This document shows, piece by piece, positions 21,013-27,678 of a stretch of 64,000 bases of DNA (the first letter of the stretch is position 1; every line of letters begins with the position of its first letter). The position numbers were made by a program, and so were the translations under genes. A model generated the notes under the pieces. It was not told where the DNA came from and made no database searches. It saw only the letters and a list, made by a program, of their open reading frames with translations. Origin of the DNA: Herbaspirillum sp. GW103 (GTDB lineage: Bacteria > Pseudomonadota > Gammaproteobacteria > Burkholderiales > Burkholderiaceae_D); contig NZ_AJVC01000004.1 in NCBI RefSeq assembly GCF_000261365.1, positions 310,001 to 374,000 on the forward strand, given 5' to 3'.

Positions 21013-21650
21013 GCACCGACCTCCTTGTCACCGTATTGCCCGGCTTGCTGCTGCTCCCACACGTGCCAGAGGTAGCGTGGATTGAAAGACACCACGACCG
21101 TCAGCAGCACCGTCAGTCCACCGAAGGACCACAAGGCCGGACCGGGGATGACCTCGGCCATGTTGGACAGCTTGATCAGCGCCACCAGCACGCCCAGCAT
21201 GAACACCTCGATCATGCCCCAGGGCCGTGCCACCTGCATGAGCCGCAGCAGCAGCACGAAGCCGGGCGGACGTGACTGGCGTCCCCCCGGCAGCAATAGG
21301 TAGAGCAACACCCCCAGCTGGATCAGCGGGAACAGCAAGGTCGTGGCCAGCACCAGCAGGGCCACCTCCGACATGCCGTCACGGGTCAACGCCACCACCG
21401 CACCGATCAGCGTGGTCTGGCTGGAGAGCCCCTGCAGCTCGATGGTCACGATGGGAAAGGCATTGGCGATCACGAACAGGATCAGCGCAGCAATGGTCAG
21501 CGGCAGCAGGTGCTGCAGGCGGCGACCGGTATCACGCTCCAGTTCGGCGCCACAACGCAGGCAGCGGGCGACCTCGCGCTCGCCCAGCGTCATGCGCTGG
21601 TAGACGGCGTCGCATTCTTCGCAAACGATGAGGTCGGTACGTTTCTGCAT
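21009..21650 (-). CDS. pqiA: PqiA family protein, first half-size subunit
   Basis: A 213-residue protein and the first gene of the pqi operon. It opens with CEEC (residues 10-13) and CLRC (about 35-38), a zinc-ribbon-like pair. Four membrane segments follow, with IANAFPIVTIELQG and the conserved GMIEVFMLGVLVALIKL. It corresponds to the N-terminal half of E. coli PqiA. Together with the downstream gene it should form the inner-membrane part of the PqiABC lipid-transport path. No clear promoter was found in the 308 bases upstream. Confidence 0.9.
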   Translation of the reverse strand: MQKRTDLIVCEECDAVYQRMTLGEREVARCLRCGAELERDTGRRLQHLLPLTIAALILFVIANAFPIVTIELQGLSSQTTLIGAVVALTRDGMSEVALLVLATTLLFPLIQLGVLLYLLLPGGRQSRPPGFVLLLRLMQVARPWGMIEVFMLGVLVALIKLSNMAEVIPGPALWSFGGLTVLLTVVVSFNPRYLWHVWEQQQAGQYGDKEVGA

Positions 21651-21958
21651 GGATGTTGGCGGTTATTGACTATCCCTCCGGGGTGGCGGAGGCGTCGGCA
21701 TTCTGTTGTTTGTTCTTCGTGGCAGGCGACGCAGAGACCGGTGCCGGCGCAACAAGTCAACCCTGGTTGGCAAAAGGACTACTGCAGCGCTCGGTTTGGA
21801 GCATTTTCACCCGGCGGCGTTCCATCCTCACAAGGAATTGATATGGCAGCAATGCAGATAAATGACCAACCGGTTATTAACAAGACGATTCTAGCAACGA
21901 ATTTATTGGAATGTGCCTTTCTTTTACGTGTGTCAACCGTGTGTAAAAAAGATAGCCC
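21651..21958. other. Intergenic, no gene seen
   Basis: Divergent gap between the pqi operon and the leu leader. AT content rises towards 21850-21950. No ORF with coding character, no hairpin with a T run, and no convincing minus-strand promoter for pqi was found. Confidence 0.5.
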
Positions 21959-21988
21959 TTGACAAGCGGATGCCCAATCTTCTACATT
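21959..21988 (+). promoter_or_regulatory. Promoter of the leu leader and leuA
   Basis: A perfect TTGACA (21959-21964), an 18-base spacer and TACATT (21983-21988). The expected start site (about 21994-21996) coincides with the leader peptide's ATG at 21995. Confidence 0.7.
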
Positions 21989-21994
21989 GCTCGG

Positions 21995-22087
21995 ATGAAC
22001 TCCGCAGCAACCACCTCCATCCGCCACAACAGCGCCAGCAGCCTGCTAGCGTTGCTATCGGTGTCGCTACTACTAGCCTCGCGCTAA
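21995..22087 (+). CDS. Leucine-rich leader peptide of leuA (attenuator)
   Basis: A 30-codon ORF beginning MNSAATTSIRHNSASS and ending LLALLSVSLLLASR before TAA. Seven of its last fourteen codons are Leu, five of them CTA, a codon otherwise little used in this GC-rich window. Leader peptides of this kind make ribosomes stall when charged leucyl-tRNA is scarce and so control downstream leucine genes. No Shine-Dalgarno precedes the ATG, and the promoter at 21959-21988 would start transcription on or beside it, so the message may be leaderless. leuA follows 354 bases downstream. A longer ORF in another frame (21913-22317) overlaps it and looks spurious. Confidence 0.75.
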   Translation: MNSAATTSIRHNSASSLLALLSVSLLLASR

Positions 22088-22271
22088 AATCCGTTTTCCT
22101 GTCGTATCCGCTGACTTCACGCGATCCGGCAAACCCACAAAATCCAGCAGGTCCGGCAGTACAACCAGGCAGTGACGCGCGTTCCATGATGAAAGCCGAC
22201 GTCGCCGCCCACCAGGCCAAGCATATGTATTCGATGATCCGCACAATCTGCAACCAGCGCGCGCAACTGCC

Positions 22272-22357
22272 CCAGGCAGGCGCCCCGCTGCGGGAGATGC
22301 CGCCTCTGGCTCTATGAAGGGTTGCCTGGCCACGCGCTCGTGGCAGCCAGGCAACCC
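22272..22357 (+). promoter_or_regulatory. Mutually exclusive hairpins between leu leader and leuA
   Basis: GGGTTGCCTGGC (22319-22330) pairs with GCCAGGCAACCC (22346-22357), extended inward by CACG/CGTG. An upstream CCAGGCA (22272-22278) can instead pair with TGCCTGG (22323-22329), giving the alternative fold expected of an attenuator. No T run follows the downstream hairpin, so a classical intrinsic terminator is not present here. Confidence 0.5.
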
Positions 22358-22374
22358 GATCGGCCACATCTGAC

Positions 22375-24145
<1,771 letters not shown>

Positions 24146-26280: not shown

Positions 26281-27633
26281 TCAGCCCTGGCGGGCCAGGC
26301 GTATGCCGCTGACCTGCCAGCGTGCGCTGGCCGGGAAGAAATTGCGATAGGTCAACCGTGCATGGTTCAGCGGCGTGGCCGAAGATGACCCACGCAGCAC
26401 GTACTGGTTGACCATGAATTTGCCATTGTATTCACCTACCGCACCCGGTGCGGCGGTGAAGCCGGGGTAAGGCCCATAGCTGCTGCTGGTCCACTGCCAG
26501 GCCACGCCAAAAAATTCACGTCCGCGCCCATGCAGCCGCGCGGCTGCATGTTCCCACTCGGCCTCGGTCAACAGACGGGCCTGAGCCCAGCGGGCATAGG
26601 CATCGGCCTCGTAATACGAGAGATGCACGGCAGCCCGATGCGGCTGCAAGGGCTGTACGCCATACTCGGTGAATTCGCGCCACTGGCCGTCGGCGCCGCG
26701 GCGCCAGTACAGGGGATGCGACAAGCCAGCCTGCCGCTTCCATTCCCATCCCTCGGACAACCACAGTGCGGCATCGTCATAACCGCCCGCCTCAACGAAG
26801 GCCAGGTATTCGGCATTGTTCACCAGCCGCGAAGCGCACTGGTAGGGCTCGACGAACTGGCGATGGCGCGGCGTCTCGTTGTCGAAGCAAAAGCCGCCAC
26901 CGGCATGACCGATCTCGACGATACCGGCCTCGATGCGATGCCAGCGCAGCGCCAGCTCGGCCGGGTCGTCCAGCTGCAGGTTCATCGGCAGGGGTTGATA
27001 GGCCGGTTGCAGCGGGTTCATCGACAGCAGGAACTTGATGTCGGTGAGCATCAGCTCCTGATGCTGCTGCTCGTGCTGCATACCCAATTCCAGCAGCGCA
27101 AGGAAACCCGACAGTTGCGGATGCGCGCTGCCCGCTTCGCCGGGTTCCGACTCCAGGGCATCGATGAGCAGCAGCATGCGTGCATCGACCTGCTCGCGAT
27201 AGGCCAGCACCTCCTCCAGCGCGGGCCGCGTGAGCAACCCGCGCTGCGGACGCGGAAACTTCTCGCCCACGCCCTCGTAGTAGGAATTGAAGAGCACGCG
27301 GAACTGCGGATGGAAGGGCGTAAAGCCGCTCTGGAAACGCTCCAGCAGGAAGGTTTCGAAGAACCAGGTGGTGTGGGCCAGGTGCCACTTGACGGGGCTG
27401 GCATCCGGCATGGCCTGCACGCAGCAATCCTCGGCCGAGAGCGGTTCGGCGATGAGCAGGGACTGCCGGCGCAGGCGCCGGTAACGGTCGCCCAGGCGCT
27501 CGCGCGGGCGTTGATGGAGGTGCTGGACGGCAGCGTCGATGACGGCATCGATGGTGGCAGCGGTGGCGGCAGTGACGACGGCCTGGTCGTCTTCGCCTTG
27601 CGTGGTGGTGTCCTGGGTAATGACGGAAGGCAT
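26281..27633 (-). CDS. egtB: Ergothioneine biosynthesis protein EgtB (hercynine sulfoxide synthase)
   Basis: A 450-residue protein. The Met ending at 27633 is preferred because AGGAG lies just upstream; the frame runs open to 27678. An N-terminal DinB-like domain holds the iron ligands: HLAHTTWFFETF (first His) and MQHEQQHQELML (HxxxH). The C-terminal half is an FGE-sulfatase domain with EWEHAAARLHGRGREFFGVAWQWTSS. It couples hercynine to a thiol donor (cysteine or gamma-glutamylcysteine) using O2 and Fe(II). It follows egtD by 45 bp on the same strand. No EgtA or EgtC is nearby. Confidence 0.92.
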   Translation of the reverse strand: MPSVITQDTTTQGEDDQAVVTAATAATIDAVIDAAVQHLHQRPRERLGDRYRRLRRQSLLIAEPLSAEDCCVQAMPDASPVKWHLAHTTWFFETFLLERFQSGFTPFHPQFRVLFNSYYEGVGEKFPRPQRGLLTRPALEEVLAYREQVDARMLLLIDALESEPGEAGSAHPQLSGFLALLELGMQHEQQHQELMLTDIKFLLSMNPLQPAYQPLPMNLQLDDPAELALRWHRIEAGIVEIGHAGGGFCFDNETPRHRQFVEPYQCASRLVNNAEYLAFVEAGGYDDAALWLSEGWEWKRQAGLSHPLYWRRGADGQWREFTEYGVQPLQPHRAAVHLSYYEADAYARWAQARLLTEAEWEHAAARLHGRGREFFGVAWQWTSSSYGPYPGFTAAPGAVGEYNGKFMVNQYVLRGSSSATPLNHARLTYRNFFPASARWQVSGIRLARQG

Positions 27634-27678
27634 CCGGTCTCCTGCAAGAATCATTGAATCAATATGGGCCAGCGCCAC

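Follow-up and report, generated by a model that had tools for sequence, protein, structure and literature searches.

A conserved tandem leucine leader, probably leaderless and with a pseudoknot candidate, upstream of leuA in Herbaspirillum and its relatives

Introduction

In enterobacteria, leuL encodes a leader peptide with CTA control codons before the leucine genes, and this leader is not known to be leaderless. A different arrangement has been described in Actinobacteria, where the LEU element combines a Leu leader ORF with a pseudoknot before leuA (Seliverstov et al. 2005, PMC1262725). A base stem between the run of Leu codons and the leuA Shine-Dalgarno sequence was proposed for this element, and that account leaves the mechanism open (PMC1262725). 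As told there, mutations in the leuA leader peptide of Streptomyces coelicolor were inconsistent with classical attenuation.

In Streptomyces lividans, leuL1 (MRFGLLLLSCRGEGL) is reported to precede leuA as a leaderless ORF, a typical Rho-independent terminator being absent (PMC8079986), and the same paper cites similar leaderless leuL ORFs in other Actinobacteria. For Corynebacterium glutamicum, PMC3890552 cites earlier RNA-seq that reported leader peptides at leuA, trpE, ilvB and aroF. In rhizobia, trpL encodes peTrpL, the 14-amino-acid Trp leader peptide of a transcription attenuator, which is described as trans-acting (PMC7298713).

Here we analyze the leuA leader in a 64,000-nucleotide stretch of DNA from Herbaspirillum sp. 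GW103 (the window), for which a preliminary description had proposed a probably leaderless leucine leader peptide. In the literature that we searched, we found no description of the element reported below for Proteobacteria; a 2004 comparative study of proteobacterial attenuators may mention part of it.

Results

The leuA locus, its promoter and the first leader ORF

All features of the leader and of leuA lie on the plus strand. From the ORF list and a family match, leuA (22442..24145) encodes a 2-isopropylmalate synthase of the TIGR00970 (yeast-type) family, and leuA of this type has one match only in the window's genome. Its closest named relative is leuA of H. frisingense GSF30, with 99% protein identity among named contigs, from which nearer records are possibly absent. 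Elsewhere in the window, the translation of an ORF on the minus strand (26281-27678) resembles, by eye only, an EgtB-type (ergothioneine) enzyme.

Upstream of leuA, the sequence holds a -35 hexamer, TTGACA (21959..21964), and a -10 hexamer, TACATT (21983..21988), with an 18-nt spacer and a predicted transcription start at about 21995. This is the sole sigma-70-like site found in 21500-22700; shuffled sequences hold 0.7 on average, and the site alone is not significant. The six nucleotides GCTCGG separate TACATT from the ATG at 21995 that opens ORF1 (21995..22087), a 30-codon leader peptide (MNSAATTSIRHNSASSLLALLSVSLLLASR) with a TAA stop, identified from sequence and family comparison and predicted to be leaderless. 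The start previously given, 21959, is a mechanical TTG start within the -35 box and not the start of ORF1. The leucine control codons occupy codons 17-27 (22043..22075), with seven Leu in 11 codons, five of them CTA, whereas CTA accounts for 1 of 287 Leu codons across seven neighboring genes. The short ORF with its CTA-rich run and the promoter before its ATG, both noted in the preliminary description, are thus confirmed in the sequence, and the promoter is conserved across the family. Because this promoter leaves six bases, hardly room for a ribosome site, ORF1 of the leuA leader is very probably translated leaderless.

ORF1 is conserved across the family

We assembled leuA upstream regions from 80 loci of named contigs, the top 30 loci from a search of the family's genomes (in which 219 of 294 genomes matched leuA at E<=1e-150) and 40 stretches picked from the places found by that search. 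Named contigs were assigned to the family by genus name, and two family loci (L018, L091) were dropped because their upstream sequence is missing. The resulting family set comprises 97 loci with upstream sequence; some genomes are present twice, through two collections, and the distinct leaders number 89.

A promoter scoring at least 9/12 with an ATG 4-9 nt past the -10 hexamer is present in all 97 family leaders, where the choice among candidates used Leu density. This agrees with the earlier proposal that transcription starts on the ORF1 ATG with no ribosome site. The gap between the -10 hexamer and the ATG, 6 nt in the window, is 6 nt in 72 of the 89 distinct leaders, 7 nt in 15, and 5 and 9 nt in one each, and the -35 hexamer is TTGACA in 84/89 and TTGACG in 5/89. 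We then fixed a test that required a promoter of at least 9/12, an ATG 4-9 nt behind the -10 hexamer and at least four Leu in 11 codons. The test was passed by 95/97 family leaders, by 0/97 on the reverse strand and by 0-2/97 in ten dinucleotide-shuffled sets. Compared for loss of the Leu run or of the reading frame, these 95 of 97 leaders have kept both.

In the family leaders, CTA triplets occur 487 times in frame in ORF1, versus 8 and 4 times out of frame. CTA makes up 64% of the Leu codons in ORF1 (487/759 in the 89 leaders) and 0.1% in leuA (1/1084, counted in named family loci over codons 1-500 of leuA). The frame bias therefore indicates selection on translated codons. Judged by this codon usage, the comparison shows ORF1 to be a selected, translated ORF with its ATG at the predicted start of transcription. 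The peptide outside the Leu run shows no conservation between genera, and ORF1 ranges in length from 21 to 65 codons. In sister genera (L106, L108-L112, L114-L120), ORF1 has 32-36 codons, more than in the window, and some Leu runs are unusually long (L109: LLLLLPLLALSLLRAL).

A second leader ORF ends at the pseudoknot candidate

The preliminary description missed half of the leader, namely a second ORF and a pseudoknot candidate. From sequence and family comparison, ORF2 (MYSMIRTICNQRAQLPQAGAPLREMPPLAL) occupies 22225..22317 and ends in CTG GCT CTA TGA. In the window's clade it has few Leu codons and, by eye, no clear Shine-Dalgarno sequence, and further in-frame ATG codons stand upstream of its start, at about 22184-22189. 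Other genera have a stronger ORF2 Leu run than the window, where it consists of CTG and CTA close to the stop. All 86 distinct family leaders with the element have, behind ORF1, an ATG that is in frame with the last ORF2 Leu codon. In many genera the ORF2 start is preceded by a Shine-Dalgarno-like sequence, for example AGGAAAG before ATG, and the 3' end reads ..CTG CTA NNN CTA CCG ATC GGT TGC CTG/CGG GCC TAG. Within the ten codons ending at the last ORF2 Leu codon, the CTA share is 169/309 (69 leaders). The codon counts thus show that in the family both predicted leader ORFs end in CTA-rich Leu runs.

Family comparison places the last ORF2 Leu codon a few nucleotides upstream of the pseudoknot candidate. 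The 3' end of ORF2 abuts the knot in the window's clade and overlaps it in most of the other family leaders listed. At L158, in the stretch of about 110 nt before leuA, ORF2 appears by eye to lack a stop in the knot and to read on beyond the leuA start in a different frame, an arrangement that would permit translational coupling to leuA.

Stem 1 of the pseudoknot candidate covaries

The H-type pseudoknot candidate lies just upstream of leuA at 22319-22367, and its arms are arranged as a, b, a', b'. Stem 1 is formed by arms a (22319..22329) and a' (22347..22357), and stem 2 by arms b (GTGGC, 22340..22344) and b' (GCCAC, 22363..22367). In the window's clade, arm b can alternatively extend stem 1 by pairing with 22330-22334.

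Across 70 sequences, 97.7% of stem 1 cells are paired; loci were chosen by 9/10 plus 5/5 pairs, so that pairing percentages are inflated and double changes are the evidence. Six pairs of stem 1 change on both sides, and double-changed cells number 54, compared with 18.2 in shuffles (0/500), far better than slid partners. At column pair 34:67 the changes are non-synonymous in ORF2 and pairing is mostly kept, and in L049 ORF2 stops early with stem 1 intact. Stem 2 is nearly invariant, with GTGGC/GCCAC replaced by GCGGC/GCCGC in L144 and L145 and by GCGGT/GCCGT in L052. The a'-b' loop has few nucleotides (4-7 nt in 84/98) for a stem of 10-11 bp, so the two stems may alternate and not coexist.

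The element is present in 94/97 family leaders and absent from L020, L023 and L136; the same criteria gave three apparent false positives (L070, L071, L079) among the 30 loci L051-L080. In L020 (Massilia eburnea) and L023 (Duganella sp.), no more than about 160 nt separate ORF1 from leuA, and ORF2 and the pseudoknot have apparently been lost, a natural deletion for testing ORF1 alone.

In the minimum free energy structure of the window, stem 1 is extended with b and stem 2 is not formed, and the energy is ordinary (z -0.85). ORF1 with the spacer is no more stably folded than shuffled sequence (z +1.4). A search of Rfam release 15 returned no match for the window or eight related loci, with one microRNA match far under threshold. 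Outside stem 1, alifold in five clades gave scattered double changes only and nothing solid.

Distribution of the element

A covariance model of stem 1 and its flanks (R1) matched 192/288 family genomes at E<=0.1, and five of these matches, placed by eye against leuA (G089, G095, G076, G115, G055), all lie just upstream of the gene. The window's genome has one strong match, at leuA (E 1.2e-11). The next (E 0.056; G000:C3:52327-52373 on the minus strand, locus L173) has no leuA in the fetched stretch and is probably due to chance.

In the class, the model matched 16 of 321 genomes, the window's own included. Outside the family, all five matches at E<=1e-3 (L157-L161) precede leuA, with identical leaders in L157 and L158, and so does a weaker match in L166 (E 0.05); for the other weak matches in the class, no leuA was found in the fetched stretch. 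The tandem layout recurs outside the family in L158, L159, L161 and L166, where a leaderless-looking Leu ORF1 is followed by an ORF2 with Leu codons before the knot.

Alcaligenaceae have a single long ORF that ends in the same knot. Its start follows closely behind promoter-like sites that score 8/12 in L031, L035, L036, L043 and L048 and below 8 in most others; leaderless initiation is less clear there because these sites are weak. Cupriavidus has, by eye, a single ORF and a longer 5' leader.

In a phylum sample of 30 leuA loci, short Leu-rich ORFs of several kinds lie close to weak promoter-like sites, and knot candidates of uneven quality were found in addition to those of L183 and L192, which belong to the family. 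In L201, some 180 nt before leuA, an ORF end (..LTRGCRVR) runs, by eye, right up to and into a GGTTGCCGGG/CCCGGCGGCC stem, which may be a further relative of the knot. L187-L191 contain similar short ORFs, such as MKTAHTLILLRQHACLRLVSPRLRG, 6-7 nt after a weak promoter-like site (8/12). No convincing knot was seen at these five leuA loci, and they are perhaps another leaderless Leu leader type.

For Actinobacteria, leuA leaders were taken from plasmid records. In those of Microbacterium, Nocardia (ORF placed by eye) and Tsukamurella, the Leu run is followed by a, b, a', b', and in each 1/60 shuffles reached the observed score. The a-b-a'-b' order was not found in a Streptomyces plasmid copy of leuA (L209).

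Pairing between the leader ORFs and the ribosome-binding sites

The leuA Shine-Dalgarno region (AAGAGGTCC, 22430..22438) is a possible, only suggestive, pairing partner of the ORF2 segment before and within the Leu codons. Within the leader, the leuA ribosome site finds its best partner in the part of ORF2 that lies 28-70 nt upstream of stem 1 (t=-2.6). Cognate pairing of ORF2 with this site reached p=0.011 in one of 14 tests, with z about -1.7, and another stretch (-145..-100) gave z -1.6. Masking of the leuA ribosome-binding site by ORF2, as a base stem, is thus only suggestive.

The ORF2 ribosome site, in turn, pairs best with the first half of ORF1 (t -1.8 and -2.0). With 22 cluster representatives, cognate pairing of ORF1(1-42) with this site is clearly stronger than permuted pairing (-12.2 versus -9.8 kcal/mol; 0/20000 permutations). 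The pairing is strongest in the Janthinobacterium and Noviherbaspirillum clusters and in the distant L161 and L166. Long in-register pairings occur in Duganella and Massilia, as in Duganella L012, where GCAUCUGCA..CUUUCCUG pairs with CAGGAAAG..UGCACCGAUGC. Eight of the 22 clusters, however, pair less strongly with their own site than the mean of non-cognate pairs, and the window's clade takes only sixth place among the 22. When other stretches of each leader serve as the reference, the mean z is no more than -0.35, and 9/86 leaders fall below -2. In several genera, codons 3-12 of ORF1 may mask the ORF2 ribosome site.

Other pairings were tried and rejected. The 5' end of ORF1 as an anti-Shine-Dalgarno sequence for leuA was no better in cognate (-5.95) than in non-cognate (-6.15) combinations, and the conserved CTACCGATCGG block paired equally well with non-cognate leuA ribosome sites. 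The ORF1 Leu run showed no cognate excess against the ORF2 Leu run, the spacer or the leuA ribosome site.

Discussion

The leuA leader of Herbaspirillum is, by sequence comparison, real, conserved and probably regulatory. Our main reading, to which we assign a probability of about 0.62, is that it is a tandem leucine-sensing 5' leader, a ribosome-stalling sensor with two leader ORFs that would act through leuA translation or through Rho. With ample charged tRNA-Leu, ribosomes would translate through the Leu codons, finish at the knot or inside it and dissociate, and the leader would adopt its OFF form. With leucine short, a ribosome would park on the ORF2 Leu codons, immediately 5' of the knot. 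There it would cover the ORF2 segment that otherwise pairs with the leuA ribosome-binding site, the knot would stay intact and leuA would be translated; Rho-dependent termination could take the place of ribosome-site masking. ORF1, read leaderless from the 5' end, would be a second, upstream sensor, and its masking of the ORF2 ribosome-binding site in several genera would make it a gate for ORF2.

The choice of effector in this reading follows from the terminator search. Terminator-like hairpins with a T-tract occur in 5/89 family leaders, versus 5.7 expected from locally shuffled leaders, which is the level of chance, and the window has no intrinsic terminator between ORF1 and leuA. With no intrinsic terminator above chance, the effector is probably leuA translation, or Rho. 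These counts also weigh against classical ribosome-mediated transcription attenuation, which the preliminary description had mentioned for enterobacteria and in which, as in enterobacterial leuL and trpL, the ribosome on ORF1 chooses between an antiterminator and an intrinsic terminator. A run of rare CTA Leu codons that closes a short ORF upstream of leuA is what such a system would have, and the distant L166 shows, by eye, a T-tailed hairpin right after ORF1. Yet the hairpins stay at chance and the leader has no Rfam match, which makes classical attenuation unlikely here. On the reverse strand of L166, ORF1 (MSNIQSAILLLRL) is followed by CCCAAGCGTTTGGGGCACCCCATTTTCTTTT, which by eye resembles a small antiterminator/terminator pair; ORF1 of this locus may control a classical attenuator, the knot being retained with ORF2. 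The suggestion that the ORF1 peptide acts in trans, like rhizobial peTrpL, draws only on likeness to the small, leaderless leader mRNA of that system (PMC7298713). It is unsupported and very improbable, given a peptide that is not conserved between genera outside the Leu run and varies from 21 to 65 codons, and a leader with no terminator signal to release a small RNA.

Rho-dependent attenuation in its own right would have a C-rich, G-poor leader load Rho, with ribosomes on ORF1 and ORF2 and the pseudoknot deciding whether Rho reaches RNA polymerase. The lack of an intrinsic terminator above chance fits this, as does an excess of C over G in the spacer (0.34/0.23) and before leuA (0.36/0.16), counted in the leader alone, and Rho has been proposed for mycobacterial cys leaders without a terminator (PMC1262725). 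The closeness of the knot to leuA is, however, explained equally well by a translational effect, and we regard this alternative as possible but doubtful. The pseudoknot could instead bind a leucine-responsive protein or another ligand, with the ORFs secondary. The knot is conserved, and a protein was argued for in the LEU element from mutational data and phylogenetic pattern (PMC1262725). Against this, the extreme in-frame CTA bias puts codon reading at the center, and Actinobacteria and Proteobacteria have a common topology with different knot sequences, unlike a shared binding site; a ligand or protein site seems improbable. A stricter form of the tandem sensor is a two-step, terminator-free relay, in which leaderless ORF1 masks the ORF2 ribosome-binding site, ORF2 masks that of leuA, CTA-stalled ribosomes unmask each in turn and the pseudoknot, a few nucleotides beyond the last Leu codon, serves as gate. 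We consider this relay tentative and less likely than not, and do not adopt it as the base case because the first pairing is weaker than non-cognate in 8 of 22 clusters, places the window's clade only sixth of 22 and hardly exceeds other stretches of the same leader (mean z -0.35). If the relay is true, the leucine sensor would be an ancient one that extends across Proteobacteria and, as regards its second half, into Actinobacteria.

The working of terminator-less leuA leaders becomes testable in this proteobacterial counterpart, which has two sensor ORFs with biased codon use and a covarying knot, Herbaspirillum being tractable. It would also add a conserved structured RNA without a match in Rfam release 15, and a bacterial family in which, throughout, leaderless initiation forms part of a regulatory leader.

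Set beside the described systems, the leader has the CTA-codon leader peptide of enterobacterial leuL and differs in that an intrinsic terminator signal is absent. With rhizobial trpL/peTrpL it has in common a leader ORF before a biosynthesis gene, leaderless there and predicted to be leaderless here; the Trp attenuator and the trans action are features seen there only, in the account of PMC7298713. Salmonella mgtCBR (PMC3641672) likewise has two short ORFs per leader, with another gene and, as far as that source describes them, apparently other signals.

S. lividans leuL1 is a leaderless Leu leader ORF before leuA with no typical Rho-independent terminator (PMC8079986). As reported there it is one ORF, whereas here a separate, predicted leaderless first ORF precedes a second that meets the knot. 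The preliminary description had considered a leaderless leu leader in this lineage noteworthy; the leaderless leuL reported in S. lividans makes it less surprising.

The nearest parallel is the LEU element. Both have an ORF with a Leu run upstream of leuA (here ORF2), and by comparison both have a pseudoknot directly after the Leu codons, with stem 2 competing in the window's clade with the extension of stem 1. The base stem to the leuA Shine-Dalgarno sequence is only suggestive here. The present element is proteobacterial, and R1 found no match in the actinobacterial leaders L204, L205 and L210 (E<=10, filters off). The control codons are CTA here and mostly CTT/CTC in Actinobacteria, and the upstream, predicted leaderless Leu ORF is an addition here. 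Since the topology matches and the sequence does not, we describe a likeness to the LEU element and claim no common descent. In the order and topology of its predicted parts, the Herbaspirillum leader works like the LEU element.
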